NCBI GenBank assembly: GCA_016650175.1
Contig: JAENWG010000010.1
Coordinates: 1 to 41,868, forward strand
From: Peptostreptococcaceae bacterium
GTDB taxonomy: Bacteria > Bacillota > Clostridia > Peptostreptococcales > Anaerovoracaceae
Reading direction: 5' to 3'
Length of the DNA stretch: 41,868 nt
A program made the translations under genes and the position numbers. Positions 173 through 41,695 of the stretch are shown piece by piece; within the stretch, counting starts at the first letter, position 1, and every line of letters starts with the position of its first letter. The notes beneath the pieces were generated by a model. The model saw only the letters and a program-made list of their open reading frames with translations. It did no database searches and was not told the origin of the DNA.

Positions 173-1625
173 TCATTTCTTTAATTATTATACTTAAATC
201 TTTTACAGCAACTTCTATTTCATCCTCATCTAGATAAATGTATGACATCCTAATGAATTTATTTTTATTCCGTATATCATATATATAGCCAGGATTTAAT
301 AATATTTTTTTACTTAATGCATTTTTAAATAGTGCTTCCATAGAAATCTTATCCTTAAGCTCAGTCCATACATAGTATCCACCTTCAGGAATATTCCATC
401 TTCCTATTTCTGTAAAATATTTATCCATAGCATTCAGCATTATATCTCTTCTTCTTCGAAGTCTACTCTTATTTTCAACTATAAATTTGTCGTAATCTCC
501 ATTTACGAATAGTTCGTTAATTATAAGCTGTGAAATGGAACTTGCTCCATAATCAACATTCATTTTCACATCACCAAGTCGTTCAATTACTGATTCTGGA
601 CCAACTACCCAGCCTATTCTTAAGCCTGGGGCAAAGGATTTAGATACAGTACCTAAATAAAGTATCATACCACTTTCATCTATACTTTTTATTGTGTTCG
701 GTGAGGCTTTATCAAAAGTAAGCTCTCCGTATGCATCATCTTCGATAATAGGTATTCTGTTAGCTTTACAGTAACTATACAACTCTTTTCGCCTATTCAG
801 AGACATCGTAGTACCTGTAGGATTATGGTTAGTAGGAATAGTATATAAAACAGAATCATAATTCGTATTTTCTTCTTTCATATTCCAATACTGTATTCCT
901 TCGCCATCCATATTTATGCCCTTCATCCTCATACCAGCTGACTGAAACACTCGTAAAGAATTTATATATGATGGAACTTCGCAATAAACAGTAGATTCTT
1001 TTTTAAGCATACATATAGAAATAAGCTGAAGTGCTTGGAGTGACCCTGCAGTGATCAGCACATTCTTAGGATTAGCGTTTATTCCAATACTCCTCATTCG
1101 CTTAGCTATAGTTTCTCTAAGACTTTCTAATCCTAAAGGTTCAAGATAATTTAGTGAACTTATCTCACCTGACAGTTTACGAAGTGCATTATTGAAGTAT
1201 TCTTTTGGAAAAAGCTTTGGTGACATTTCTCCGGTACCAAGTCTTCTTATTTTATCCACAAACTCATATTCATTTATTGTCTGTATGGTGGGAAGACTTT
1301 CCATAAAGTATCCTGACTCCAAATGACTTCCCCAGTTGGTTTCATTTGAAGACATCAAAATTGACCAAGTATTTTCTGCAACTACTGTTCCGCTTCCGGC
1401 TAAACCTTCTAATATTCCATATGATTTTAGTTCCTCAATAGCCATAACAACGGTACTTCTGTTAACATTAAAAGCTTTTGCAAGTTCTCTTTGAGCAGGT
1501 AATTTATTACCTATAGCCCAATCACCACTCGCTACCTTTTTATTCATGTAGTTAACAATCTGTTTGTATACCGGTTCATTGCTTTTTTTATTTGGTTTCC
1601 AATCGATATTAACTATTTTACTCAT
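162..1625 (-). CDS. MocR/PdxR-type GntR regulator with aminotransferase-like domain
   Basis: 487 residues, normal for MocR-type regulators. Residues about 15-85 form a GntR winged helix (QRELAKAFNVNRSTVVMAIE and the following GILEGLAGSGT wing). Residues about 125-480 form a fold-type I PLP aminotransferase domain with PTNHNPTGT, the EDDAYGEL aspartate segment and the PLP lysine in VSKSFAPGLRIGW. MocR proteins use PLP or an amino-acid-PLP adduct as a signal and often control neighbouring PLP or amino-acid genes. The start overlaps the stop of the PhzF-like gene (TAATG), so the two are translationally coupled. The likely targets are the aminotransferase and cyclodeaminase genes of the same cluster; this is inference. 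The effector is unknown. Confidence 0.9.
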   Translation of the reverse strand: MSKIVNIDWKPNKKSNEPVYKQIVNYMNKKVASGDWAIGNKLPAQRELAKAFNVNRSTVVMAIEELKSYGILEGLAGSGTVVAENTWSILMSSNETNWGSHLESGYFMESLPTIQTINEYEFVDKIRRLGTGEMSPKLFPKEYFNNALRKLSGEISSLNYLEPLGLESLRETIAKRMRSIGINANPKNVLITAGSLQALQLISICMLKKESTVYCEVPSYINSLRVFQSAGMRMKGINMDGEGIQYWNMKEENTNYDSVLYTIPTNHNPTGTTMSLNRRKELYSYCKANRIPIIEDDAYGELTFDKASPNTIKSIDESGMILYLGTVSKSFAPGLRIGWVVGPESVIERLGDVKMNVDYGASSISQLIINELFVNGDYDKFIVENKSRLRRRRDIMLNAMDKYFTEIGRWNIPEGGYYVWTELKDKISMEALFKNALSKKILLNPGYIYDIRNKNKFIRMSYIYLDEDEIEVAVKDLSIIIKEMKKS

Positions 1626-2518
1626 TATATTTCAATTTCACCTTTCACAAGTGTTACTGCAAATCCGCCTACTTTTACAATAGGCTTTCCATTTTCCATT
1701 AATAATTTAGTAGATATTTTAGACGGTCTTAACATCTTTTCACCTTGAATTACATTATTTAATTTATTTGCTTTAACTATTCCCATATTATATAAGTAAA
1801 ATGTAAGTGCTCCGTTAGAAGTTCCTGTCGCTGCTTCTTCATCTATATCATATAGAGGCGCAAAGTTTCTAGCATGTATACATCCGTCTTCAGTGTTTAC
1901 TGTGAAAGCATGTACACCAACTACTTCGTATTTTTTTGACAATTCTGTTAATGCAGGAAAGTCAGGATTTATTTTATCAAGCTCAATTTCATCTTTTACA
2001 GGCATCATAATATCTATTAAACCTGTAGTTACCATCTTAGGTATCAACTTTACGTTTAAATCTTTATTGTAATCCTCGTTGCCTAAATAACTAATCCCCA
2101 TTACCTTATATAAAGCTTCTATTTCAGCTTGTTCAGTCATTTCGCCTACTTCTTTTGGCTCTGCCATATCCATTAGGATAGCGTCATTATCTACTTGTAC
2201 CTTTAATTCTCCCGCTAATGTATGATTGACACATACATCTCCTGCTTTTATTAGGCCTTCTTTTAACAATACATAAAATGATCCTATAGTTGCATGACCG
2301 CAAAGTTCTACTTCAGCTGCTGGAGTAAAATATCTAATATTAAATTCTTTTTCACCTAACCGCTTTATAAAGGCTGTCTCTGAATATCTAAGCTCAGCCG
2401 CTGTTTTTACCATTACGTCATCACTTGGAAAACCAGCACCTTCAGGTAAAATTACAATTCCAGCAGGATTGCCACCAAAACACTCTTCTGTAAATACATC
2501 TACAATATATAATTTCAT
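1625..2518 (-). CDS. PhzF-family isomerase/epimerase-like protein
   Basis: 297 residues from the ATG at 2518, which has GGAGG at the right distance; an upstream in-frame ATG at 2557 lacks a site. The PhzF fold is visible: N-terminal VDVFTEECFGGNPAGIV, the catalytic-type glutamate in LRYSETAFI, the RYFTPAAEVELCGHAT motif and the C-terminal EEAATGTSNGALTFYL. PhzF relatives isomerize amino-acid-like or aromatic substrates; PhzF itself acts on a dihydroanthranilate in phenazine biosynthesis, but no phenazine genes are present. Its neighbours (aminotransferase, cyclodeaminase-like protein, MocR regulator) point to modification of an unusual amino acid. It is cut off from the first two genes of the presumed operon by an IS110 element and may have lost its original promoter. 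Confidence 0.88.
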   Translation of the reverse strand: MKLYIVDVFTEECFGGNPAGIVILPEGAGFPSDDVMVKTAAELRYSETAFIKRLGEKEFNIRYFTPAAEVELCGHATIGSFYVLLKEGLIKAGDVCVNHTLAGELKVQVDNDAILMDMAEPKEVGEMTEQAEIEALYKVMGISYLGNEDYNKDLNVKLIPKMVTTGLIDIMMPVKDEIELDKINPDFPALTELSKKYEVVGVHAFTVNTEDGCIHARNFAPLYDIDEEAATGTSNGALTFYLYNMGIVKANKLNNVIQGEKMLRPSKISTKLLMENGKPIVKVGGFAVTLVKGEIEI

Positions 2519-2600
2519 AATTACCTCCTTGTATAATACAGTTATAGAAATAATCATATATTCTATACGGATATTCCTCTAACTTTATTATTTAATGTTC

Positions 2601-2791
2601 GTGGTTAAAGATGGTTCAACCACTTTTCTAATTCTACTTTTTGTACTATAGTTTCTTATAAGAGTATATGCGATGCCTCCTTGAATAACTCTTTGAGTTT
2701 ATATTCGTAACATAGCATGCATTCTATGATACTCGTTGATTTAGCTGGTTGAATTTCTCTTTGGCTACCAAAGAGAACTATTCGTGTCAAC
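2601..2791 (+). ncRNA. Candidate IS110 bridge RNA in the left non-coding end
   Basis: IS110 (not IS1111) elements encode a bridge RNA in the non-coding DNA upstream of the transposase. Here one sees a 5' hairpin GTGGTT/AACCAC (2601-2606 with 2618-2623), a middle region with AACTC/GAGTT (about 2691-2703) and CATAG/CTATG (2711-2715 with 2724-2728), and a strong 3' hairpin TCTCTTTGG/CCAAAGAGA (2756-2764 with 2768-2776). The 3' hairpin is enclosed by GTTGA/TCAAC (2748-2752 with 2787-2791), leaving an asymmetric internal loop. A 5' stem-loop followed by two looped domains is the known bridge RNA layout. Which loop binds target or donor cannot be told by eye. Confidence 0.42.
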
Positions 2792-2848: not shown

Positions 2849-4153
2849 ATGTCAAAACTTTACGACTTACCTGTGATTGGCATTGATATCGCTGCCAACT
2901 TCTCTGTCGCCACTGTTTTAAGGCCTAATGGTGACATTTTCAAGAAAAATTTTCGTTTTAATCATTCTCTTGATGGCTTTAACAGTTTTCTTGAACTTTT
3001 CTATAAAGCTGAAGAAGAGTTCAACCGCAAGCCTAAAGTGTTTTTCGAATTCACAGGTATTTACCATTTAACTCTTCTTCATTTTCTTGTTGATCGCCAG
3101 ATTGATGCTAACACCATCAATCCTTTGATAACTAATTCTAACAAGAATTTCAACATAAGGAAAGTAAAAAATGATAAATTGGATTCTTATTCTATTGCTA
3201 GGCTTTGTAAGTTCGATGATGTTAAAACATCTGTTTACACTTCCAAAGATATGTTAAGCTTAAAACTTTTAGTACGTGATTATTATAAACTCGTTGATTT
3301 AAAAGCAAATGCTAAGAAAGCTTTTTCCAACGCTTTATACATTTATTATCCTGGTTTGCAAAAGGCTTTTACCGATATCTCTGGTAAAACACCCCTGGCT
3401 TTTATTTCTAAGTACCCTACACCTAATGACCTTTTAGGCGCTGATCGTTATGAAGTTATCAGCTTTTTAAAAGTATCTTCCCATCGAAGTTTAGTTTGGG
3501 CTACCGCTAAGTTTGGTCTTATTTTAAAAATAGCTTCTGATGCTTTCGTTTTAGGTATTAATTCAGCAACTTTTACTTCTAAAGTACGTCGTTTTGTTTC
3601 TACCAATAACTTTTACGAACAACAGCGACTTGATTTACTTGATGAAATCAAGTATTTAATTGATTCTGTGCCTTTTTCGGATTCATTTAATCAGAATATT
3701 TCTTTGCTTATGAGTTTCAAAGGTGCTGGTTTTATAAGCGCCGTCACTCTCTTAACTGAAATGAACGATATCGCTAATTTCCATAATGCTAATCAACTTG
3801 TTGCCTTTTTCGGTGTAGATCCTTCTGTTAATGAATCAGGTAACTTTAAAGGTGATACCAACAAAATGACTAAGCGCGGTACTGCTACCGGACGTAGGGC
3901 ATTGTACGCACTAGCCCTTTCCTCTATTCGTAAGACGAAATCAGGTGTTCCTATGAATAAAGTTCTTTATGATCAATATCATATAAAGCTCAAAGGAAAA
4001 AAGAAAAAAGTTCGCTTAGTCGCTATTATGAACAAGCTACTAAGATATATTTTTTCGGTTCTGAAAAATCAGAAGCCCTATGTTGAAAGAGACCCAAGAA
4101 TTCATCAACAAATGTTTGTAAACAACACTATTAAAAATAACTCTGCAGCCTAA
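2849..4153 (+). CDS. IS110-family transposase (DEDD recombinase)
   Basis: 434 residues, full length for the family. The RuvC-like DEDD domain is N-terminal: GIDIAANF (residues about 11-18), the glutamate in FFEFTGIYH (about 60), and the aspartates in VKNDKLDSYSIARL (about 105-120). The C-terminal Transposase_20 domain begins at MSFKGAGFISAVTLL and includes AFFGVDPSVNESG and the KRGTATGRRALY signature, where the catalytic serine of the family resides. The RBS AAAGGAG precedes the ATG. IS110 recombinases insert the element at a site chosen by the bridge RNA and act through a circular intermediate. The frame is intact, so the element may be active. Confidence 0.95.
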   Translation: MSKLYDLPVIGIDIAANFSVATVLRPNGDIFKKNFRFNHSLDGFNSFLELFYKAEEEFNRKPKVFFEFTGIYHLTLLHFLVDRQIDANTINPLITNSNKNFNIRKVKNDKLDSYSIARLCKFDDVKTSVYTSKDMLSLKLLVRDYYKLVDLKANAKKAFSNALYIYYPGLQKAFTDISGKTPLAFISKYPTPNDLLGADRYEVISFLKVSSHRSLVWATAKFGLILKIASDAFVLGINSATFTSKVRRFVSTNNFYEQQRLDLLDEIKYLIDSVPFSDSFNQNISLLMSFKGAGFISAVTLLTEMNDIANFHNANQLVAFFGVDPSVNESGNFKGDTNKMTKRGTATGRRALYALALSSIRKTKSGVPMNKVLYDQYHIKLKGKKKKVRLVAIMNKLLRYIFSVLKNQKPYVERDPRIHQQMFVNNTIKNNSAA

Positions 4154-28350: not shown

Positions 28351-29256
28351 TTAACCAAGTTGCGTGTTAATATACCGTGACAAACAGTCTGGAACTTCTG
28401 CATATTGTGTCAAATTTGATATCAAAGTGTTCTCTTCGATTTTACCTAATGTCACAAGTCTTCTCTTCCTAAAATACTTCCAATTGGCTCTTTTATTGGA
28501 ATCCTCAAACATATTATTCAAATATAAAGGCATAGCCTGCCTAAAATATTTGCCTCTTATCAGTTTTTCTGGTTCATTTTGCAAATATTTTATTGCATGT
28601 TCTATTTCATTTTCATTTACTTCTACAAAATTTGGGATTAAATCCATTACTTCTTGATAATTTTTCAATCCTTTAATTTGATTATATTTCTTCATTTTGC
28701 TTAAGTCTGGTTTATCGCAACAATATTTAGCTTTATTCTTCTGCAAATAATAACACGCATTTGCATATAGTATTTCTTGACAAATTATATCTCTACTACT
28801 TTTTAAATATTCAACAGCTGATTCATAATCTAAATAATCCTCGTGATTTTTAAAACCATTAAATCCCATTGTACCCTTAACTATTTCCACTATTGCTTCA
28901 TCTGTTATAAATAAATTTTCTATTGAATAACAAGGGGTAACATATATTTCTTTGGGAATATCAGAATTATCATCATAGTCTTTATCTACGAAATACAAAA
29001 GTTTTTTATTTTTGGCTAATTTTGTAGACCTTTTAATAAATTCATATACTTTAATAACATTCTCTTTACCCTGGCAAATGTAATGATTTTGTTTTCTTCC
29101 TTTATAGAAAGATCTTAGAACGCTGCCATAATATAAATAATCATCTTTTCCTTCAAAAAATAAGAATATATCATATCTACTGAATTCTGAAATAAATTCC
29201 ATATAAACAACCTGATCGCCTTCAGCTTCATTAATTAAATCATCGACTAAACTCAT
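28351..29256 (-). CDS. DUF4435 (TOPRIM-like) protein, AriB-like effector candidate
   Basis: 301 residues. The N-terminal half has the TOPRIM-type acidic pattern: FFEGKDDYLYYGSVLRSFY (glutamate at about residue 33) and LLYFVDKDYDDNSD (aspartates at about 88-92), followed by YVTPCYSIENLFIT, a usual DUF4435 motif. In PARIS, DUF4435 protein AriB is released by the ATPase AriA on sensing a phage anti-restriction protein and acts as a toxic tRNA nuclease. The gene lies one base after the AAA ATPase gene. The pairing and residues support a PARIS-like effector; target and trigger are unknown. Confidence 0.8.
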   Translation of the reverse strand: MSLVDDLINEAEGDQVVYMEFISEFSRYDIFLFFEGKDDYLYYGSVLRSFYKGRKQNHYICQGKENVIKVYEFIKRSTKLAKNKKLLYFVDKDYDDNSDIPKEIYVTPCYSIENLFITDEAIVEIVKGTMGFNGFKNHEDYLDYESAVEYLKSSRDIICQEILYANACYYLQKNKAKYCCDKPDLSKMKKYNQIKGLKNYQEVMDLIPNFVEVNENEIEHAIKYLQNEPEKLIRGKYFRQAMPLYLNNMFEDSNKRANWKYFRKRRLVTLGKIEENTLISNLTQYAEVPDCLSRYINTQLG

Positions 29257-29257
29257 A

Positions 29258-30799
29258 TTATTCCCCTACTTTTAAAAATGATAGCTCTTTTGTTAATTCT
29301 GAATAATTTTCTTTGAAAATAAAAGGAGAGTGCGTAGCTACTATTAGCATCGCAATTTTTTTAGATTCATAAATATCCTTTAATAAGGTCTTCTGCCAAG
29401 CTATGGACAATGATAATTCAGGTTCATCCATTACCATTATGCCTTTTGTCATTAATTCTAAATACACTTTAGAAAAAACCGACACTATTTGCTTTTCACC
29501 TGAAGACAACTGATCGAATGTAATAATTTCGTTGTCATTAGTTATAATTTTAATTGATAACAAAGCTTCATTATATTCAATCTTTTTATTCGTAAGATAT
29601 TTATTACAAGTGCTTGTAAAATTTTTTAATTTGTCATTTATTGCTTCTTGATCTTTATATATGTCTACCAACCTGTTTAAATAATAACTTAAAAACACTT
29701 GATTCGTATTGTCAAGATTACCTTTTAGGAAACGATTTAATTTGCTTAAATTCTTTATACTATCACGACCTATGCGGTCTATTACTACGTTTGCTTTATA
29801 TATATCCATTTCATTATAATCATTTGAGAGTTCATCTATACTTTTATTACTTAATAAGTCTCCAATGATCTCGCCGTTCATTTTTGTATATGAATTGTTT
29901 GCATCTTCAGACATTTTCATTAATAGATTATTAATAATCATTTCAACATCATGCATTCCAAAATTTGCATAATTAATCATTTTATTGCTGTTTGTTCTAT
30001 TAGAAATTTCATCATCCATAGATACTTCAATTCTTCTATAGGTCGGGAAAAAACAAACTTCTTCACTTATCATGCTTTTTATCTCAAACAACTCCCTAGA
30101 ATAGCTGTAGCTCATTATACGCCTAATCCTATATAACAAATATTTAGATTTATCATAATCTTCCATAGGTCTTCTATAATTGAGGCTATGAACACGCACA
30201 TATTCTTGCCTTTTTAATTCTTTTGAAATATACCTTTCAAGAGTTTCAATACCATCCGCACTTTGATCATCAAGATAACTTTTCAACCTTCGTCTTATCG
30301 TAGGAGAAAAACTCTCATAATTATCATCAATCAGGTTTTCAATTTTACTAATCATTTCTCTATTGACTTTTTTCTTTCCATTATCTATATTAAATACTTT
30401 ATCCTTAACACCTACTGTTATACTTTTAAAATTGATATTCACTAAAAGTCTCTCATTTCCAGTCAAAACAGCATTTATTATATTTAAGATAGTCGTTTTT
30501 CCTTGCCCGTTCTCTGAAACCCAAATATTTATATCTTTATCAAAGTCTATAAAATAATCATTTTTACCAAACAGTCCAATAATTTTAATCCATTTTAATG
30601 GAGATGTATTCATGTTTTTCTTTGGTATTTTATTAATCTCAAGTTTTTTTAGAGCCTTTGTTAATTCTTTAGTTTGTAATACCACTATTCGCCCATCACT
30701 TACCTCTACGTTGTTATTATTGTACTCTAAATATTCAAACATTCGTTCATTTGCCATTCCATATTTTTTAGCAAGCTCGCTTACTTCGTATTTAGTCAT
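29258..30799 (-). CDS. AAA (ABC/OLD-like) ATPase, AriA-like sensor candidate
   Basis: 513 residues. Residues 1-60 look like a small helical, possibly DNA-binding part (YEVSELAKKYGMANERMFEY). The ATPase follows: Walker A in VSENGQGKTTILNIINAVL (about 95), a long helical insert, the signature FDQLSSGEKQIVSVFSKVYL, Walker B in GIMVMDEPELSLSIAWQKTL and the switch histidine in VATHSPFIF. This is the ABC-type AAA fold of OLD, RecF and AriA proteins. The partner DUF4435 gene next to it favours PARIS. The start has no adjacent Shine-Dalgarno site; the hairpin at 30809-30830 lies between it and AAGGAG. Confidence 0.87.
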   Translation of the reverse strand: MTKYEVSELAKKYGMANERMFEYLEYNNNNVEVSDGRIVVLQTKELTKALKKLEINKIPKKNMNTSPLKWIKIIGLFGKNDYFIDFDKDINIWVSENGQGKTTILNIINAVLTGNERLLVNINFKSITVGVKDKVFNIDNGKKKVNREMISKIENLIDDNYESFSPTIRRRLKSYLDDQSADGIETLERYISKELKRQEYVRVHSLNYRRPMEDYDKSKYLLYRIRRIMSYSYSRELFEIKSMISEEVCFFPTYRRIEVSMDDEISNRTNSNKMINYANFGMHDVEMIINNLLMKMSEDANNSYTKMNGEIIGDLLSNKSIDELSNDYNEMDIYKANVVIDRIGRDSIKNLSKLNRFLKGNLDNTNQVFLSYYLNRLVDIYKDQEAINDKLKNFTSTCNKYLTNKKIEYNEALLSIKIITNDNEIITFDQLSSGEKQIVSVFSKVYLELMTKGIMVMDEPELSLSIAWQKTLLKDIYESKKIAMLIVATHSPFIFKENYSELTKELSFLKVGE

Positions 30800-31402: not shown

Positions 31403-31477
31403 TGGAGGCGACACCCAGATTTGAACTGGGGGATGGAAGTTTTGCAGACTTCTGCCTTACCGCTTGGCTATGTCGCC
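31403..31477 (-). tRNA. tRNA-Cys (GCA), intact; integration site
   Basis: 75 nt with CCA encoded. Acceptor GGCGACA pairs with TGTCGCC; the anticodon loop CTGCAAA gives GCA. The 3' half is repeated at 20451-20499 and 25673-25720. The recombination point lies in or near AGACTT, in the anticodon arm. Confidence 0.97.
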
Positions 31478-31509
31478 ACACGTTCTATATCATTTAAAAT
31501 TAATTTTGT

Positions 31510-31584
31510 TGGCTAGGGTAGCAGGATTCGAACCTGCGAATGATGGAATCAGAATCCATTGCCTTGCCGCTTGGCGATACCCCA
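31510..31584 (-). tRNA. tRNA-Gln (CTG)
   Basis: 75 nt with encoded CCA. Acceptor TGGGGTA pairs with TACCCTA; the anticodon stem ATGGA/TCCAT encloses TTCTGAT, so the anticodon is CTG (reads CAG). Confidence 0.93.
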
Positions 31585-31592
31585 ATAAAAAA

Positions 31593-31669
31593 TGGGGTGG
31601 ATAGTGGGAGTCGAACCCACGCATACAGGAGCCACAACCCTGTGTCTTAGCCACTTGACGATACCCACC
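31593..31669 (-). tRNA. tRNA-His (GTG)
   Basis: 77 nt including the extra G at position -1 opposite C73 and an encoded CCA. Anticodon loop TTGTGGC gives GTG. Confidence 0.96.
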
Positions 31670-31727
31670 ATAGAAAATGTTTCGTGTAAAAGAGTAACCC
31701 ATCCAATTTTTCAATTGTTAATAAATA

Positions 31728-31804
31728 TGGCGACCTGGATCGGGCTCGAACCGACGACCTCCAGCGTGACAGGCTGGCATTCTAACCAACTGAACTACCA
31801 GGCC
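31728..31804 (-). tRNA. tRNA-Asp (GTC)
   Basis: 77 nt with encoded CCA; T-loop GTTCGAGC and anticodon loop CTGTCAC, anticodon GTC. Confidence 0.97.
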
Positions 31805-31818
31805 AAATATATTTATAA

Positions 31819-31894
31819 TGGTGGGCGTAATAGGGCTCGAACCTATGACCCCCTGCTTGTAAGGCAGGTGCTCTCCCAGCTGAGCTATACGCCC
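31819..31894 (-). tRNA. tRNA-Val (TAC)
   Basis: 76 nt with encoded CCA; GGGCGTA pairs with TACGCCC; anticodon loop CTTACAA, anticodon TAC. Confidence 0.97.
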
Positions 31895-31898
31895 ATTA

Positions 31899-31975
31899 TG
31901 GTAGCGGCGAGTGGACTCGAACCACCGACCTTCCGGGTATGAACCGGACGCTCTAGCCAACTAAGCTACACCGCC
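31899..31975 (-). tRNA. tRNA-Met (CAT), elongator type
   Basis: 77 nt with encoded CCA, anticodon CAT in loop TTCATAC. The body GGCGGTGTAGCTTAG matches elongator tRNA-Met; it lacks the GGG/CCC anticodon stem pairs of the initiator. A tRNA-Ile2 with modified CAT is less likely. Confidence 0.9.
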
Positions 31976-32004: not shown

Positions 32005-32033
32005 ATAATACCAAAAATAGGCATTTTTGTCAA
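32005..32033 (-). promoter_or_regulatory. Promoter of the tRNA operon
   Basis: Minus strand -35 TTGACA (32028-32033), 17-bp spacer, -10 TATTAT (32005-32010), about 30 bp before tRNA-Met. The -35 overlaps the stop codon end of the alpha-galactosidase/galactokinase gene. Confidence 0.88.
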
Positions 32034-35000
32034 TGATTTTTGCCATATTCTTTCATAATTCTTTTAGGTCCATCAACTATTTCTACAGGATAAAAAGAAG
32101 GCGTGTATCCTATCTCTTTTTTATAAATTTCTGATACACTTTTTATGAAATTATTTAACTCTTCGTTCCTTACAAGCGCAATAGCGCAACCTCCAAAACC
32201 GGCTCCCGTCATTCTTGCCCCTAATACGCCTTCTTGAGAAACTGCTGCTTCAACAATAGTATCAAGTTCTATTCCAGTTACTTCATAATCTTCTTTTAAA
32301 GATTTATGCGATTCATTTAGCAACTTTCCAAATTCAACGAAATCACCATTTATTAAAGCTGTATTGGCCTTATTAGTTCTTTCGCATTCCGTTACTACAT
32401 GTCTTCCTCTTCTTATATGTGTTTCATCAGGTATTAAATTTTTATTATCCTCATATTCTTTTAATGATATGTCCACCAAATTCTTGTAATCATGCTCTTT
32501 ATTCAAATATGAAAGAATTTCTTTGCACTCTTCTACCCTTTGGTTATACTTAGATTCACTTAGTTTTCTTTCTTTATTAGTGTTACAAATAACTAAGGTT
32601 AAATCATCAAATATAGCCGGTACATATTTATACTCTAGATTATTGGTATCAAGGTAAATAGCATTATCCTTTTTACCCATTGCTATAGCAAACTGATCCA
32701 TAATACCACATTGAACACCAATAAAGTTGTTTTCTGCTTCTTTACCAATCACTGCTAATTCCTCATTTGGAATCCCTAATTCATATTCATTATTTATGGC
32801 ATAAGCCACTAGCATTTCTAAGCATGCCGATGAAGAAAGACCTGCACCCTTAGGTAAATCACTATTGCAATAAAGGTTAAAACCTTTATCAATCTTATAT
32901 CCATGTTTTTTCAACGTAACTATTACGCCTTTTACATAATTAGTCCAACTATCCTCTTCGTTATATTCTAAATCATTTAATGATATTTCTATTTCACCGA
33001 ACTCACTAAAGTCATTAGAATAAAGATGTATTTTATCATCATTTCTTTTAACAAAGCTCCCGTATATTCCTAAGCTTATAGCACACGGAAGTACTTTCCC
33101 ACCGTTATAGTCTATATGCTCACCTATTAAATTTACTCTTCCTGGTGCAAAATACCTCTTCACCTCTTCCATCACATATATTCTAGATGCAAAGTCTTTA
33201 AATATTCTCACATTTTCATTATGCCCTGTTCCTGAAAATCCAGGTTTTAATTTTATTCCTATGTTATTCAGAAGACTTCCTGTAACAAAGCAGTCTTCTT
33301 TTTCACCATCTAATTTAACAAACTTAGATAAGGCGTTATGAACAGCTGATTTATTCTTTATATGAACAGGTGAAACTGCGTTTATTAAAGTACCGAACTC
33401 TCTTATATCAGTGTCTACTATTCTATTTGAAAATCTATAGTAGCAATCTTCTTTAAGCCCTTTTGATACAAACTTTTGATAACCAAAATTAGCTTTAACT
33501 AGACTTTGGAAAACAAGTCCTACAGCTTCTTCTATACCTACGCTCATCCAAGAAGTAATTCTGTTGTCTTGTTTTAGCCTATAGAATTCTCCGAATTGCA
33601 TAGTATATCTGTGTTTCTTATACCATTTGATTTGTTCAATTACTATTTTCTTATCTACTGAACTCATCTCTGCAATATTTAGTTCATAACCCAGTATTCC
33701 AAAACACGCAACCTGGAATCTACTTTCAATACTAGTCTCTCTAAGAGTCTGATGATTAGGACTATCAGATACATGTGCGCCTATTGTAGACATTGGATAA
33801 CCATAACTGTAACCAGTTTGAATCTCTGTTCTACACAGTGCATCAGTATTATCACTCGCCCAAATCTGAGGCATATAGCAAAGAATACCTAAATCAAATC
33901 TGTTTCCGCCAGATGCACATCCTTCAAACAATATGTTAGGAAATTCCGCTTGTAGCTTCACTAAAATTTCGTAAAGACCCATAACATACCTATGAGATAG
34001 TTCTTCCTGCCTGTCGCTATTTAAATGCTGTGAATAGCTATCAGACATAATTCTATTCATATCCCATTTAACATAACTAATATTCGCTGATGAAAAGAGA
34101 TTTTTCATAGCATTAAATACATATTCTCTTACTTCTTTATTACTTAAATCAAGCATCATCTGATTTCTGCCTAAACTATGATCTCTATTAGGGTTTTTAA
34201 TGGCGTACTCAGGATGTTCTTTATATAAGTCGCTTTCTTCATTAACCATTTCTGGCTCTACCCAAATCCCGAACTCAAGTCCCATATCGTTTATTTTATC
34301 TGCTAAGCCCTTAACCCCTTTAGGTAATTTCTTCTTGTTAGGATACCAATCCCCTAAAGATGTTTTATCATCGTCTCTTTTTCCAAACCACCCGTCATCT
34401 AATACAAACAGCTCTACGCCTACTTCTTTAGCAGCTTTCGCCATAGTAAGTAATTTACTTTGATTAAAATTAAAGTATGCAGCTTCCCAGCTATTATTGA
34501 TTATTGGTCTTTCTTTATATTTCCAAGGGCCTCGAACTACATGTTCATTAACAAACTCATGCATATTGTTACTCATTCTTTTGAAGCCTTTATCAGAAAA
34601 TATAAAAACAGCTTCTGGCGCTTCAAATGCTTCATCTTTATTTAGATGCCATGAAAAGTTTTCTGGATTAATACCACTTAAAAATCTAAGCTTCCCATCT
34701 CTATTTTTTTGTACAGATTCATAGTGATTCCCGCTGTATATGAGGTTCATACCATACACTTTTCCGTAATCTTCATCTGTATTTTTATCAGAAAGCATTA
34801 CAAAAGGATTATTACCCGATGAAGATACTCCTGCATTAGATGAGTTTACTATAAGTGTAGGCCCGCAGCTTATAGTATTTTTATCCATTTCCCTAGCCCA
34901 CGCACCATTAAACGTAGTAAAGTCAAAATCACCTTCATCAAAGTCTAGTTGCGCACTCATAAGTCTTTTTATAACAACATCTTCGTCAGACTTATTAATA

Positions 35001-35485
35001 AGTTTAGCTCTTCTTGATATTACATCGCATTTAGGATAAGAAGTATAGAAAAGTTCCAAAAATACATCTCTTTCCCTTTCCTTAAGCACTATCTTCAACC
35101 TATCTGCCTTATCACTTCCATATGATGAAGGAAGCGTGCTCATTTCATCACTGCTTTCCATTTCATAATCAAAATATATGAAATCAGAAGTAGTACTTCC
35201 ATCTGCATATTTGCATACTACAAGAGGATCTCTAGAATCACCTTTACCAGTTGATGAATATTCTAAACAGATATCTTCTAAACATACGTTATCATATTCT
35301 TTAGAATAACTAATCGAGCTCCCTCGTGGGAATTCATGCTTTTCTAAAACCGAATTAGCAACAATATTTCCAACTACTTTTTTACCATAGTAAATATGCT
35401 CAAGCTGACCTGCTTCCATAATTCGAAAAACATAGCTTGACCAATAAGTGTTTATTGTAAATGTATTTCCGGTTTTATAAATCAT
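32030..35485 (-). CDS. Fusion of GH36 alpha-galactosidase and galactokinase
   Basis: 1151 residues in one frame. Residues 1 to about 770 are a complete GH36 alpha-galactosidase: nucleophile Asp in YVKWDMNR (about 474), acid/base Asp in WASDNTDAL (about 545), GCASGGNRFD and a C-terminal beta domain. From about 772 a galactokinase follows with all GHMP motifs: RYFAPGRVNLIGEHIDYNGG, LPKGAGLSSSACLE, the catalytic Asp in GIMDQFAIAMG and GARMTGAGFGGCAIAL. There is no linker; the usual N-terminal helix of GalK seems replaced by the end of GH36 (RIYVMEEV). The protein should free galactose from alpha-galactosides and phosphorylate it to galactose-1-phosphate. It lacks a signal peptide. It overlaps the symporter gene by 11 bp. 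Confidence 0.93.
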   Translation of the reverse strand: MIYKTGNTFTINTYWSSYVFRIMEAGQLEHIYYGKKVVGNIVANSVLEKHEFPRGSSISYSKEYDNVCLEDICLEYSSTGKGDSRDPLVVCKYADGSTTSDFIYFDYEMESSDEMSTLPSSYGSDKADRLKIVLKERERDVFLELFYTSYPKCDVISRRAKLINKSDEDVVIKRLMSAQLDFDEGDFDFTTFNGAWAREMDKNTISCGPTLIVNSSNAGVSSSGNNPFVMLSDKNTDEDYGKVYGMNLIYSGNHYESVQKNRDGKLRFLSGINPENFSWHLNKDEAFEAPEAVFIFSDKGFKRMSNNMHEFVNEHVVRGPWKYKERPIINNSWEAAYFNFNQSKLLTMAKAAKEVGVELFVLDDGWFGKRDDDKTSLGDWYPNKKKLPKGVKGLADKINDMGLEFGIWVEPEMVNEESDLYKEHPEYAIKNPNRDHSLGRNQMMLDLSNKEVREYVFNAMKNLFSSANISYVKWDMNRIMSDSYSQHLNSDRQEELSHRYVMGLYEILVKLQAEFPNILFEGCASGGNRFDLGILCYMPQIWASDNTDALCRTEIQTGYSYGYPMSTIGAHVSDSPNHQTLRETSIESRFQVACFGILGYELNIAEMSSVDKKIVIEQIKWYKKHRYTMQFGEFYRLKQDNRITSWMSVGIEEAVGLVFQSLVKANFGYQKFVSKGLKEDCYYRFSNRIVDTDIREFGTLINAVSPVHIKNKSAVHNALSKFVKLDGEKEDCFVTGSLLNNIGIKLKPGFSGTGHNENVRIFKDFASRIYVMEEVKRYFAPGRVNLIGEHIDYNGGKVLPCAISLGIYGSFVKRNDDKIHLYSNDFSEFGEIEISLNDLEYNEEDSWTNYVKGVIVTLKKHGYKIDKGFNLYCNSDLPKGAGLSSSACLEMLVAYAINNEYELGIPNEELAVIGKEAENNFIGVQCGIMDQFAIAMGKKDNAIYLDTNNLEYKYVPAIFDDLTLVICNTNKERKLSESKYNQRVEECKEILSYLNKEHDYKNLVDISLKEYEDNKNLIPDETHIRRGRHVVTECERTNKANTALINGDFVEFGKLLNESHKSLKEDYEVTGIELDTIVEAAVSQEGVLGARMTGAGFGGCAIALVRNEELNNFIKSVSEIYKKEIGYTPSFYPVEIVDGPKRIMKEYGKNH

Positions 35486-36839
35486 TCCCTACCTCTTCAC
35501 GTTTTACCTTTAAATCACTCATAATTTCGTTCATCTTGCTTTCGTTCAGCTTATATTTCGATTTAAAGAAAAGTATGGACAAAACAAGCCCTGCCATAGG
35601 AATAATTATCATAATAAATCTTAGGCCTCCAAGCGTTGATGCCGTTTGAACAGCTGCATCTTGGTCAAGCTTAATTAAATCAAGTCCAACACCTGCAATT
35701 AAAACTGATATTGCAGAAGCAAGTTTTACAACAAAGGTTTGAAGTGAAAACACTACGCTTTCATTTCTTTGTCCATTTTTCCATTCGCCATAATCTACAG
35801 TATCCGCTAGGAAAATGGTTGTAAGAACAGTTGCCATCCCAAAACCAAAAAAGATTACTGCTGCTGCTAAACAAAGCAGTATAATATTTTGTATATTTAA
35901 AATACCAAGAATAAATAGCATTGCATAGCCTACCAAAGTGGTGATAATCGCTCCGATAAGGATTTTTTTACATTCAAATTTTTTCCTTATTAAAGGTAAA
36001 CTTACCATAGATAATATTTGCACAGCTCCGCCTACTGTAGCAAACAAACCAAACAGTGCTACATTACCTATATCATATCTAAAGAAATATATTGCAACTT
36101 GATTAGTTAAATAAAGAGATGCATTAAATACTATAATTGCTATTACTACTACCATAGCCTGATCATTATGAAAAAGTGCTACAAACATATCCTTAACAGT
36201 TGCGGCCTTTTCTTTAATGTTAAATTTTTCTTTAACATTCTTTATAGTTACTCCTATAGTAATTATAAACATTATGCATATAAATAGAGCAACTCTACTA
36301 AATCCAAGCCTCTCATCCCCACCTCCAAGAACCGGAACCACTACAAGGGTTAATGAAGTAGCTACAGCAAATCCAAAGCCCGCGCAACTTCTAGCTATAA
36401 CTGAGATGTTTTCTCTATCTTTACCTGGCTCTGTAATAGCCGGGATCATAGACCAATAAGGAATATCCATAATAGTGTATGTCGTTCCCCAAAGTATATA
36501 TGCTACTGATATATATACTAATAAACTATTTCCTTCAAGTCCGCTTGGTACAGAATACATAGCGTATAGTACTAGCGCATTAACTAAGGTACCTATCATA
36601 AGCCATGGTCTGAATTTACCAAATCGAGTTCTAGTTTTTTCTACTATTACTCCCATAAATGGATCATTTATTGCATCGAACACTCTAGCTACCATGAATA
36701 GTACTCCTATAAATGTTGCTGAAACCCCAAGGACAGTATTGTAGTAATACATTAAAAACCCAGCTACAAAAGCATAAACCATGTCTTTTCCCACAGCGCC
36801 TACGCCGTAGGAAACTTTTTCCCCTGTCGATAACCTCAT
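35475..36839 (-). CDS. GPH-family glycoside:cation symporter (MelB-like)
   Basis: 454 residues, about 12 membrane helices. The MelB/GPH signature is clear: helix II has ARVFDAINDPFMGVIVEKTR (cation-site aspartates at about 52-59), followed by RFGKFRPWLMIG, and the central DIPYWSMIPAIT. These carriers import melibiose, raffinose-type sugars or other glycosides with Na+ or H+. Its operon partners (alpha-galactosidase-galactokinase, GH2) make a galactoside the likely substrate. One base separates it from the preceding gene, and it overlaps the next by 11 bp, so translation is coupled. Confidence 0.93.
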   Translation of the reverse strand: MRLSTGEKVSYGVGAVGKDMVYAFVAGFLMYYYNTVLGVSATFIGVLFMVARVFDAINDPFMGVIVEKTRTRFGKFRPWLMIGTLVNALVLYAMYSVPSGLEGNSLLVYISVAYILWGTTYTIMDIPYWSMIPAITEPGKDRENISVIARSCAGFGFAVATSLTLVVVPVLGGGDERLGFSRVALFICIMFIITIGVTIKNVKEKFNIKEKAATVKDMFVALFHNDQAMVVVIAIIVFNASLYLTNQVAIYFFRYDIGNVALFGLFATVGGAVQILSMVSLPLIRKKFECKKILIGAIITTLVGYAMLFILGILNIQNIILLCLAAAVIFFGFGMATVLTTIFLADTVDYGEWKNGQRNESVVFSLQTFVVKLASAISVLIAGVGLDLIKLDQDAAVQTASTLGGLRFIMIIIPMAGLVLSILFFKSKYKLNESKMNEIMSDLKVKREEVGNDL

Positions 36840-36840
36840 A

Positions 36841-38300
36841 CTATTGTTCCTCCTTCAATTTAATAGCTGTTTTAACTGCATTATATGCACCGTCGTATAT
36901 CCCAATGCTTTTATTTTTCATTATATTTTCGCACATATCATTTACTACGTCTCTATCACTCATCATGAGGTCTAACATCTGTATTACATGAGGAATGTCA
37001 CTGCATTCTATACTTCCATCACCTATTTCCGCGGAATGTATAGCCCCCCACTTTTCATGGCCTCCAACTCTTTTAATAAATAGCTTAGGAACAGGATAAA
37101 AAGCAAGTTCACTAGGTTTTGTAACCAGTACATCTGAACATCTCATTAATAGATTGGTAATGTATACAGCTTCGAAGATGTCTTCATGATAAAATCCGTG
37201 AATTCCGTATACTTTTTTATCAAGCCATTCTTCAGCATATTTTACTGAATTGTCCCATTCGTTTAAGTGTTCTTTTGTTATATTTTTCATTCCATCTATT
37301 TCATTTATCAGTTCAGACCATACATTTTTATAGTCTCCTACATTTACAAAGAGAACTACTTCTTTTCTTCTAATATATGGAAGAAGATGCTTTATTATTG
37401 CTACAAAGATTTCCTTTTGTGCGCCTGCACCGCCAATCGTCAGAAGAAACCTAATTGGCTCACCTTCTTTTGATCTTCTTATTCTTTTCTCACAGTCATC
37501 TTCAATATTTGAAACAAGTTCATGATCAATATAGTGACCTGTTTCTTTTATATTTTCTTTTGGTATGGGCTTTAATACTTTTATCCCATCCATTCCGTTA
37601 AGCAATCTATAACCTAAATAAGAAGAATGTGTCTGCACAGTATGGACACTTCCTTCAGCTAAATGAAGAGCCATTGGCCAATTATCTGGTATTGCGTTTA
37701 CTACATATTTCATGTTACCGTGTATTGCAGCTTGCGCAGGCCATACATGAGTTGCAATAACAGGTATATCATCAGGCACATTATTAAATAGTGGTGCCAT
37801 TAATCCTGCATTCTTCTGATCTACCGCATTATATGAAATCTTTCTAAACCCTTCATAATTTAACGGTTCCCAGTAAAATTTGTTAAACAATTTACTTTTA
37901 GAAGATAGTCTCGAGCCAAATGAATACAAATCGTTTTGGTTACTAATCACCTTGCCCCCTGTAGAAACTGACATAGCGTTAAGATCCATCCAATAAGGCA
38001 CATATCCTAAAGAGTTCGCAGCTGATGCCATTGCCATCGATATTCTGTAATGACCAAATCCCATCCTTATATTTCCAATAATTATTGCCTTTTCATCATA
38101 AATATCTTCTTTATCTCCAAGTACCATGTTTTTAATTCCAAGCGTTTTACCTAATGTTTTATTATCTTCTAAGTGATAACCATATTCTATTTCAGAATCA
38201 TCACCAAATTTTTCTCGAATTTTAGTTTTGATTTCTCGGCTTTGTTTAAAACTTTATCGTCCATTTCGTTTCCAAATATTTCACTTGAGCGATCTTTCAT
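36841..38300 (-). CDS. Glycosyltransferase-like (MurG/GT28-fold) protein, frameshifted near 5' end
   Basis: The main frame encodes 428 residues from 38127 (MVLGDKED...), but the sequence before it also codes in the same frame (KIREKFGDDSEIEYGYHLED) and joins, through a one-base shift at 38226-38229, a start at ATG 38300 with GGAG seven bases upstream. A fifth A in the AAAA run would join them into about 485 residues. The body starts AIIIGNIRMGFGHYRISMAM and later has LLTIGGAGAQKEIF and MRCSDVLVTKPSELAFYPVP, the pattern of two-domain GT-B glycosyltransferases. A role in glycan or glycolipid synthesis or in handling the imported sugar is possible. Whether the frameshift is real or an error is open. 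Confidence 0.62.
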
Positions 38301-38313
38301 GCCTCTTCTCCTT

Positions 38314-40647
38314 TTAGTTATGTTTAACAGCAAACTCCAATATTACATCTTCTGTTCCGTGTATCTTAAAGATAAGTTTAGCTTTTCCAGTTTCACCTAC
38401 AGTCTTAACGTAAGTTCCTCCCATTCCGCCTTTTAAACTAATCAAATTAGGTCCGACAATTTCTATAGGTCCTTCTGTTTCAATTTCAATAGGTTCCTGA
38501 TAATATCTCATGACTTGGTTATTTTGATTAAGCATTCTGAGTTTCACTGTAGCTATATCATAGGTTTCTCCGTCTATTAGATCCATATGGTCAACTTCAG
38601 CCTCAAGATGCTTACTTTCATAAGCGCCTTTTATAACAGTTATAGCCTCTTTATCATTTATATATCCTACGAATTTAAATACGGGTCTTTTACCTCCCCA
38701 ATTACCTATGTAGGTTTCATATAATCTAGTGAATTCTGAAGACTTCATACCATTAAATACCATAAGCTTTAATGCTTCTAACTTGTCTTTAATAGTAAAG
38801 CTAGAAAGTCCTTCTCTGGAATATTTTAAAAGAAGTTTTTTAATGCTTTTTTTAGTGCTTCCTTTATATTTTTCGTCATCTAATTTATCCCCAATAATAT
38901 CGTCTATTTCTATTGGTGGATGCAAAAGTGCACTATAATGTTTAGTATCAGGATAAAATCTATTGATTAATCTATTATTGATAAAAAGCTCTATATAGTC
39001 GGTATTTGTAAATGCATAAACTTTTCCTAAAATGCTAGCTGAGTTCTCTCCTAAATTCATAGAAGGCATAATTTCCATAACCGGCTCTCTATTACTTTGA
39101 CTTTTGTAGACATAACCTGCCGGTTTTAAGTTCCTAAACATATCTGTAACCCCATGGTAACAAATAATGTCATCTCCTCCGAAGTCAACATGTGTTTGAT
39201 AATCTGACATACACCAGCCAAATCCTCCGGCTATATCATTGTGCATAGCTATATCGTTTAATACTCTGGCATGTCTTAAAGCATGTTCAAGCAATTTCTC
39301 TTCTGAATCAAATGGCTTACACGGAAACATGTGCCCATTATATTCTGTAACCATATATGGAACTTCCGCGCTACCCGTTACTTTTTTTCTGCTCCTTACA
39401 CCGTCGTTTTTACCATCATAAAGGAAATCATTGAACGTATAAACATCTTCAAGCAGATGTCCGTTTTCATAGCATCTGACGCCTCCTGTTTGTCTATATG
39501 GATCAAGCTCTCTTGCAACATCGTTAGTTTTTTTGTAAAAGCTGTCTAAATCCTTTGATTCGTTAATTCTTACACCCCAAAGCATTATTGAAGGATGATT
39601 TCTGTACTGCAATACCATATCCTTTACATTTTCTATTGATATTCTTTGCCAATCTTTATCACCTATATGCTGCCACCCAGGCATCTCGGTAAATACTAGT
39701 AATCCTATCTCATCACACCTTTCAATAAAATGTTTTGATTGTGGATAATGTGACGTTCTTACGCAATTTAAACCTAAATCATTTTTAAGTAAATCAGCAT
39801 CACTTACCTGTCCAGATTTTGGCATAGCATATCCAATATATGGATATGACTGATGTCTATTTAATCCTCTAAGTTTAAGCTTTTTACCATTTATATAAAA
39901 ACCATCTTTTTCAAATCGTATATCTCTAAATCCAAACCGTATTTTTTTCTGGTCAATTAAACTCTCTTTATTATATAAACTTACTATTAAAGTATATAGT
40001 TTAGGATTATCAACGTCCCAAAAAACAACATCACATTCCTTTGAATTTAATTTACTTCCTAAATCAGTTATTTGATTATTATCTAAAAGTTTATAATTCA
40101 GTACATATCCTTCATTATCATTTTCAATAACCGTATCTGCTGTTACCTTTTTACCTTCTGTGTGAATATAGACATCTTCTATATATGATTTATTTTTAAT
40201 TTCAAGGCTTACTTCTCTGTAAAGACCGCTATACGCTAGGTAATCTACTGTTCCTCCAAACGGTGGTATGTCATGTCTTTCAGTGCTATCAACTCTTATG
40301 GCAAGAATATTTTCACCTTTTACCAGACCATTTGTAATTTCAGTCTTGTAGTAAGTATAACCACAACTGTGCTCATTTAAAAATTCACCATTTAAATACA
40401 CCTTGCTATAGTGTGCTGCGCCTTCTATATTAAGAAAAACCCTCTTTTCATTCCAGAGTTCATCAAATTCAATTTTTTTAACATAAATGGAATCTCTTTG
40501 ATAAAGTTTAGGGTTCGCATAGTTCGCATCTAACACTTTAAACGTATGAGGAAGTCTTACATTCTCCCCAACATCTCTAGAATTTTTCAGATGCCTTTCA
40601 TCAAACTTTTCATAGTATTCCCAACTGTTATTAAGATTTATAATCAT
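38314..40647 (-). CDS. Glycoside hydrolase family 2 (beta-galactosidase/beta-glucuronidase-like)
   Basis: 777 residues. Order: N-terminal sugar-binding beta domain (about 1-165, GAAHYSKVYLNGEFLNEH), immunoglobulin-like domain, TIM barrel (about 255-540), and a C-terminal beta part. Catalytic residues: acid/base Glu in LWGVRINESKD (about 361) and nucleophile Glu in YMVTEYNGHMFP (about 433). The motif LRGLNRHQSYPYIG is typical of GH2. It lacks a signal peptide, so it acts on imported oligosaccharides. Substrate could be a beta-galactoside; a beta-glucuronide or mannoside is not excluded. First gene of a four-gene operon ending in the fused enzyme. Confidence 0.9.
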   Translation of the reverse strand: MIINLNNSWEYYEKFDERHLKNSRDVGENVRLPHTFKVLDANYANPKLYQRDSIYVKKIEFDELWNEKRVFLNIEGAAHYSKVYLNGEFLNEHSCGYTYYKTEITNGLVKGENILAIRVDSTERHDIPPFGGTVDYLAYSGLYREVSLEIKNKSYIEDVYIHTEGKKVTADTVIENDNEGYVLNYKLLDNNQITDLGSKLNSKECDVVFWDVDNPKLYTLIVSLYNKESLIDQKKIRFGFRDIRFEKDGFYINGKKLKLRGLNRHQSYPYIGYAMPKSGQVSDADLLKNDLGLNCVRTSHYPQSKHFIERCDEIGLLVFTEMPGWQHIGDKDWQRISIENVKDMVLQYRNHPSIMLWGVRINESKDLDSFYKKTNDVARELDPYRQTGGVRCYENGHLLEDVYTFNDFLYDGKNDGVRSRKKVTGSAEVPYMVTEYNGHMFPCKPFDSEEKLLEHALRHARVLNDIAMHNDIAGGFGWCMSDYQTHVDFGGDDIICYHGVTDMFRNLKPAGYVYKSQSNREPVMEIMPSMNLGENSASILGKVYAFTNTDYIELFINNRLINRFYPDTKHYSALLHPPIEIDDIIGDKLDDEKYKGSTKKSIKKLLLKYSREGLSSFTIKDKLEALKLMVFNGMKSSEFTRLYETYIGNWGGKRPVFKFVGYINDKEAITVIKGAYESKHLEAEVDHMDLIDGETYDIATVKLRMLNQNNQVMRYYQEPIEIETEGPIEIVGPNLISLKGGMGGTYVKTVGETGKAKLIFKIHGTEDVILEFAVKHN

Positions 40648-40789
40648 ATCAGACTCCTAAACATAGTATTAAAATAATAATACACCTTGCAACTATTTTT
40701 TGCACCAACAAATCAACCTCAATGCACCTTTACTATTTATACAACTAATGTTAAACTATAAGGTAATGAATAAAAGTAAGGAGAAAACT
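40648..40789. promoter_or_regulatory. Divergent promoter region between the GH2 operon and the nucleotidyltransferase gene
   Basis: 142 bp serving both directions. On the plus strand TTTACT-17-TAAACT (about 40730-40758) or a TATAAG further on could be the -35/-10; on the minus strand TTGCAA and a TATTAT or AATACT are candidates. None is strong. I see no clear catabolite-response palindrome. Confidence 0.4.
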
Positions 40790-41695
40790 ATGAAACCAAT
40801 ACTATTAATAATGGCAGCAGGAATGGGAAGTAGATACGGTGGATTCAAACAGATCGACCCTATAACAAGTGAAGGTGAAATAATTATGGACTTTTCACTG
40901 TATGATGCTTATGAAGCAGGTTTTAGAAAAGTAGTCTTTGTTGTAAGACATGACTTTGAAGAAGCTTTTAGATCTTTTATCGATACTAGAGCAGGGAAAT
41001 ATTTTGATGTTTCATACGCTTTTCAAAACATAGATGATTTACCTGTTGGATATAAAGTACCTGAAGGAAGAACTAAGCCTTGGGGAACATGCCACGCAGT
41101 TATGGCCGCTAAAGATGCAATAGATGCACCATTTGCAGTTATAAATGCTGATGATTATTACGGTAAAGAAGCTTTTATTAAAATATATGATTACCTAGCT
41201 ACTAAATCAGCCAAAGAAAACTACTGTATGATAGGATACAACGTTGAAAACACATTGTCCGAAAACGGCAGTGTTACAAGAGGTGTATGTAAAACTTCTG
41301 ATGACAATAAGCTTATAGGTTTGAAAGAAACTTATGACATCGAAAGAATAGACGAAAAAATTATATATACCGAAGACAACGTAGATTATGAAATAGCTGA
41401 AGGCACTCCAGTTTCTATGAACATGTGGGGAATACACGAAGCTTTTATGAAAGAAGCAGAAGAAAGTTTTCCTGACTTTTTAGATGAATCCATTAAAACA
41501 AATCCTATGAAAAGCGAATATCTTTTGCCTAGTAAAATAGATGAACTTGTCTTAGCCGGTAAGATAAGCGTAGATGTTCTTACATCAGCCGATAAATGGT
41601 TTGGAGTTACATACAAGGAAGACAAGCCCGTTGTAGTCGCATCTATCGATAAAATGAAAAAAGAAGGTAAATATCCTTCAAAACTCTGGAAATAA
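40790..41695 (+). CDS. Sugar nucleotidyltransferase (UTP-hexose-1-phosphate uridylyltransferase-like)
   Basis: 301 residues from ATG 40790, with AAGGAG upstream; the frame is open 30 codons further but lacks a site. The nucleotide-binding signature LLIMAAGMGSRYGGFKQID (about 4-22) and the central NADDYYGKEAF with its metal-binding aspartates define the NTP-transferase fold. Such enzymes join a sugar-1-phosphate to UTP or another nucleotide. Its divergent partner operon makes galactose-1-phosphate, and no galT is in the window, so it may be the step from galactose-1-phosphate to UDP-galactose, as the UTP-dependent enzyme does in some bacteria. That role is inferred. Confidence 0.85.
   Translation: MKPILLIMAAGMGSRYGGFKQIDPITSEGEIIMDFSLYDAYEAGFRKVVFVVRHDFEEAFRSFIDTRAGKYFDVSYAFQNIDDLPVGYKVPEGRTKPWGTCHAVMAAKDAIDAPFAVINADDYYGKEAFIKIYDYLATKSAKENYCMIGYNVENTLSENGSVTRGVCKTSDDNKLIGLKETYDIERIDEKIIYTEDNVDYEIAEGTPVSMNMWGIHEAFMKEAEESFPDFLDESIKTNPMKSEYLLPSKIDELVLAGKISVDVLTSADKWFGVTYKEDKPVVVASIDKMKKEGKYPSKLWK

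Follow-up and report, generated by a model that had tools for sequence, protein, structure and literature searches.

Can two consecutive enzymes of galactose catabolism be encoded by one continuous bacterial gene, and what would be gained by joining them? This question is raised by a reading frame in contig JAENWG010000010.1 of a Peptostreptococcaceae bacterium (assembly GCA_016650175.1), of which the whole stretch analysed, 41,868 nucleotides in length, is referred to here as the window. An initial annotation had described a GH36 alpha-galactosidase fused to a galactokinase (GalK) at positions 32030-35485.

Domain organisation of the fusion gene

The fusion gene (32030..35485) is located on the minus strand, which the initial annotation had not given, and encodes a GH36 alpha-galactosidase followed by a galactokinase in a protein of 1151 amino acids. 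As had been claimed, it is a single open reading frame, which starts with ATG and contains no internal stop codons. Its assignment is supported by Pfam and NCBIfam matches, and by an orthologue in the same genus (L002/L137). Unless stated otherwise, all features described below are on the minus strand.

The GH36 half contains the complete three-domain set, with all matches above the Pfam cut-off. It comprises an N-terminal beta-domain (residues 26-282, 34640..35410; PF16875 Glyco_hydro_36N, 254 bits), a catalytic (beta/alpha)8 barrel (residues 286-632, 33590..34630; PF02065 Melibiase, 479.6 bits over the full profile) and a C-terminal domain (residues 645-774, 33164..33553; PF16874 Glyco_hydro_36C, matching residues 645-772). 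Both catalytic aspartates originally reported are present: motif scans have placed the nucleophile Asp475 in KWDMNR (34061-34063) and the acid/base Asp545 in WASDNTD (33851-33853), and both align with the catalytic aspartates of AgaA. The CxxGxxR galactose-recognition motif reads CASGGNR (residues 523-529) and the GxxLxxxG motif of the C-terminal domain reads GSLLNNIG at residue 736 (motifs as defined in PMC5094572); from the alignment, the latter is the putative tetramer motif. The GH36 part terminates in ..DFASRIYVMEE, matching its stand-alone relatives.

The remainder of the protein is a galactokinase domain (residues 776-1143, 32057..33160), which scores well above the cut-offs of the NCBIfam galactokinase models NF003705 (545.9 bits, cut-off 385) and TIGR00131 (370.7 bits, cut-off 226.65). 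Pfam matches within it are GalKase_gal_bdg (777-808), GHMP_kinases_N (849-938) and GHMP_kinases_C (1042-1122). The three GHMP motifs noted at the outset were recovered as GRVNLIGEHIDYN at residue 782, PKGAGLSSSA at residue 878 and GARMTGAGFGG at residue 1089, and the catalytic Asp930 (in CGIMDQF) and Arg783 are also present. No match to a P-loop kinase family was found in the fusion protein by Pfam, NCBIfam or Foldseek, and the kinase half is of the GHMP type. A second match to either part of the fusion protein is absent from this genome and from that of the second species described below. Both halves thus appear intact, with their catalytic residues kept, and are predicted to be active.

The junction between the two enzymes

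An AlphaFold2 model of the whole fusion (pLDDT 87.2, pTM 0.78) resembles known structures in both halves, with TM-scores of about 0.95 for the GH36 half against 3MI6 by structure comparison, and of 0.91 and 0.94 for the kinase half against 1PIE and 1S4E, respectively, by Foldseek. At the junction (33125..33190), where pLDDT ranges from 83 to 92 in ten-residue blocks, a single residue separates the last GH36 strand (residues 766-774) from the first GalK strand (residues 776-787). In this predicted structure, and consistent with the alignment, a flexible linker between GH36 and GalK is missing.

As originally noted, the kinase also lacks the usual 25-30-residue N-terminal helix of galactokinases, according to both alignment and model. 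Helix-less galactokinases are known, and loss of the helix is therefore no sign of a dead enzyme. One example is 1S4E, for which the structural match begins at chain residue 8. Another is a stand-alone enzyme from the same bacterial order (L010; G059:C14, about 1492-2618, minus strand), which groups weakly with the fused kinases.

Conservation in a second species

The initial annotation had proposed a search for the same domain order in other genomes, and this order was found in another species of the genus (G001), whose assembly is independent. Its genome is 97% complete and is the only other one of this genus in the collection. It encodes the same fusion in a protein of 1144 amino acids that is 82% identical, and both proteins, as the alignment shows, lack the N-terminal helix of GalK. 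The two genes have a synonymous divergence of about 1.3, and a dN/dS of about 0.07 for the whole gene, with values of 0.05 for the GH36 barrel and 0.08 for GalK. These low ratios indicate purifying selection on both halves, which are thus being kept, in agreement with the view that the fusion is not a chance read-through.

Genomic context

Directly upstream of the fusion, and overlapping its start by 11 nucleotides, lies a gene for a MelB-type glycoside-cation symporter of 454 amino acids (35475..36839). The fusion of the second species is also located downstream of such a gene, with the same overlap. The symporter narrowly passes the cut-off of the NCBIfam MelB equivalog (458.6 against 456 bits), and its substrate is predicted. 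Two further co-oriented genes belong to the same cluster: a DUF6937/DUF6938 protein (36841..38127), assigned by Pfam and comparison with the second species, and a GH2 family protein of 777 amino acids (38314..40647; PF02836/PF02837), which is syntenic there. The DUF6937/DUF6938 gene (36841-38300) encodes 428 amino acids here and 486 in the second species, and its 5′ part appears to run on in a different frame; near 38209-38213, an A run differs by one base, which represents either a real frameshift or an assembly error.

Divergent to this galactoside cluster, a nucleotidyltransferase related to structure 3PNN (E 6e-87) is encoded on the plus strand (40700-41695). Six tRNA genes (Cys, Gln, His, Asp, Val and Met; 31403-31975) are found directly downstream of the fusion, and a 116-residue reading frame on the opposite strand to them (31592-31942) is probably spurious. 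Near the tRNA cluster, an AAA ATPase gene (PADLOC AriA, 2.7e-35) adjoins a gene for a DUF4435 protein (AriB, 1.2e-26) at 28351-30799, forming a PARIS-like anti-phage pair. Elsewhere in the window, an IS110-family RNA-guided transposase gene is present on the plus strand (2849-4153).

A possible galactose pathway without GalT

Unexpectedly, no match to the galT models PF01087 or TIGR01239 was detected in either genome of the genus, with controls and related genomes positive. The same locus of the second species (L137, 1-17558) contains galE, as well as genes resembling pgm and pgi. By our own count, GalT is missing in roughly half of the family genomes with a clear GalK, which suggests that galactose-1-phosphate may be used in another way in these bacteria.

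The nucleotidyltransferase is a candidate for uridylylation of galactose-1-phosphate, and its homologue in the second species adjoins galE. It occurs, however, in 298 of the 347 genomes of the family, many more than have a clear GalK. With such near-universal occurrence, its presence argues weakly for such a role and is not diagnostic of a dedicated GalT replacement, which was rejected as an assignment.

Distribution and origin

The fusion was sought in 350 genomes of the family and in samples of 394 genomes of the order and 398 of the phylum, which partly overlap, and in 80 loci drawn from a scan of 84,980 species genomes. Fetched loci were checked by script for one frame with both domains, and genome-table matches spanning both halves were inspected for stop codons. 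Across these roughly 1,200 partly overlapping genome searches and 80 loci, GH36 and GalK share one uninterrupted frame only in the two species described above; no single frame with both domains was found in any other genome or locus examined.

The genome is assigned to the family of Mobilibacterium timonense (Anaerovoracaceae), since G064, another member of its family, has a locus identical in sequence to that of this species wherever the two were compared. In many relatives, GH36 and galK lie side by side on one strand as separate genes, with the GH36 stop about 80-280 nucleotides ahead of the GalK 'YFAPGR' motif. Separate, adjacent GH36 and galK genes in this order are found, for example, in L003, L023, L026, L047, L048, L078, L094, L102, L111 and L127. 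In L003, the two genes overlap by four nucleotides (ATGA), and a similar transporter gene is located upstream of the pair. Relatives with separate genes, which the initial annotation had named as an argument against the fusion if found alongside its restriction to this assembly, do therefore exist, but the second species shows that this assembly is not alone in being fused.

Three apparent fusions were rejected. G244 (L026) and G928 (L127) gave one match each, across residues 8-1143 and 14-1143, but GH36 is divided from GalK by a single in-frame stop (TAA and TAG, respectively), leaving adjacent genes, and G004 (L006), for which a frame of 1300 residues was recorded, has a stand-alone GH36 enzyme of 773 residues. 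L026 and L127 are near-fusion arrangements, with GH36 and GalK in a shared reading frame one stop codon apart.

Since the other genomes and loci examined have no single frame with both domains and often have adjacent separate genes, the fusion is, on present evidence and as judged from sequence comparison, a derived trait at genus level. It most likely originated from an adjacent GH36-galK pair and was then fixed in the genus, which is the parsimonious reading. Loss of roughly 80-120 nucleotides, comprising the GH36 stop and the stretch encoding the GalK N-terminal helix, would have produced the fusion. In a kinase tree, the fused GalKs are not placed within the group of adjacent-pair GalKs, and their nearest rows join at a weak support of 62/88. 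Owing to this weakly supported key node, the tree neither confirms nor excludes a local origin from an adjacent pair.

Proposed function and alternative explanations

We consider it likely that the fusion acts in the cytoplasm as a bifunctional enzyme and belongs to a gene cluster for the use of alpha-galactosides of the melibiose type. A melibiose-like alpha-galactoside would be imported by the symporter of the overlapping upstream gene, and its terminal alpha-galactose would be hydrolysed in the cytoplasm by the GH36 half, with retention, via Asp475 and Asp545. The GHMP half would then convert the released galactose and ATP to galactose-1-phosphate. The main gain would probably be that two consecutive enzymes are made in a 1:1 ratio and are physically tethered to each other on a GH36 tetramer. 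We know of no characterised member of the GH36 branch closest to the fusion, so that another specificity, such as that of an alpha-N-acetylgalactosaminidase, is conceivable.

The initial annotation had proposed that the fusion couples release of galactose to its phosphorylation, and the two consecutive steps are indeed combined in one protein. Coupling beyond tethering is a different matter. It appears unlikely that the fusion evolved for channelling, by which galactose would move straight from the GH36 pocket into that of GalK and never mix with the cytoplasm. The consecutive strands, lack of a linker and confident junction of the model may fix the relative placement of the domains, which would favour channelling, but galactose is small and diffuses fast, and separate proteins suffice in relatives. 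In addition, the domains of the analogous fusion AgaSK are kinetically independent, behaving similarly together or apart, and the modelled kinase domains of this tetramer face outward from its GH36 core, with their sites away from the GH36 sites (PMC7688924). The benefit of the fusion therefore most likely lies in fixed stoichiometry and proximity rather than in true channelling. We regard as very improbable the more elaborate possibility that a rigid, linker-free GH36-GalK protein transfers galactose internally between its halves and supplies a route without GalT, by pyrophosphorylase uridylylation followed by GalE, fixed in a single genus; if true, it would represent a compact, rewired galactose route in one genus. 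Release of a separate kinase from the same reading frame, by proteolysis or by internal initiation near Met772, is quite unlikely too. An internal start near 33170 had been suggested, and an in-frame ATG at codon 772 (33170-33172) is conserved in both species, at a position near which helix-less galactokinases such as 1S4E and L010 begin. However, this codon has no Shine-Dalgarno sequence in either species (about 0 kcal/mol, against -7.2 kcal/mol at the true start in both), on which ground a restart was rejected and a single polypeptide is expected. Met772 also lies within the conserved last GH36 strand in alignment and model, so that its conservation is explained without a start function.

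The likelihood that two normal genes were joined by an assembly or sequencing error, or by chance read-through, is almost negligible. The one-base frame change in the nearby DUF6937/DUF6938 gene shows that the assembly may contain errors, but the same junction occurs in an independent genome whose fusion protein has diverged to 82% identity, with the synonymous divergence given above, and a single stop loss or indel would not remove the GalK N-terminal helix in both species. That one half is not catalytic for galactose, with a kinase acting on another hexose or a hydrolase preferring alpha-GalNAc (alpha-N-acetylgalactosaminidase), is likewise very unlikely. Such altered specificity could be read from CASGGNR in the fusion, where AgaA and AgaB have CSGGGGR, and from motif 2 of the second species, which reads PKASGLSSSA. 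Against it stand the full set of catalytic residues, the galactokinase equivalog score, the low dN/dS in both halves, the adjoining MelB-type transporter and galE in the cluster of the second species.

Comparison with known systems

The best-studied GH36-kinase fusion is RgAgaSK, the alpha-galactosidase/sucrose kinase of Ruminococcus gnavus E1, whose GH36 part is represented by PDB 2YFN (PMC7688924). Like the fusion described here, AgaSK has an N-terminal GH36 part directly followed by a sugar kinase, and is restricted to a few Firmicutes, with at least one relative carrying the parts as separate genes. The kinases differ: that of AgaSK, a sucrose kinase of the Walker A (P-loop) type, has about 215 residues and acts on the sucrose that is left, whereas the present one has about 370 residues and is a GHMP galactokinase, with the released galactose as its expected substrate.

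The separate GH36 and galK genes of other Bacillota (for example L003/L126, L111 of Mobilibacterium timonense, and L127) share domains, order and strand with the fusion, but have a stop between the two genes and a GalK that retains its N-terminal helix. GH36 enzymes of subgroup I (AgaA/AgaB, LaMel36A and 3MI6 of L. brevis) have the same fold (TM-scores of 0.92-0.96, normalised to target) and share the catalytic aspartates, CxxGxxR and GxxLxxxG; they are about 37% identical in structural alignment and carry no kinase. The galactokinases 1PIE of Lactococcus lactis and 1S4E of Pyrococcus furiosus have the GHMP fold and motifs of the fused kinase but stand alone; 1S4E, solved with galactose and ADP, is helix-less like the fused GalK.

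The initial annotation knew of no description of this arrangement, and we have found none of a GH36-GalK fusion in the open-licence PMC literature beyond the analogue AgaSK, although this precedent makes the architecture less unprecedented than claimed. In the fusion, domains of known enzyme families are combined in a new way, which on present evidence is confined to one genus and has a described analogue. This natural, linker-free joining of two successive enzymes of galactose catabolism appears to be undescribed. With its predicted activities, it would offer a ready-made one-enzyme path from alpha-galactosides to galactose-1-phosphate, and its separate-gene relatives provide controls with which to test cleanly whether joining two enzymes is enough by itself to make a two-step reaction faster. 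Together with AgaSK, it shows the independent addition of sugar kinases, of two unrelated folds, at the C-terminus of GH36 enzymes.
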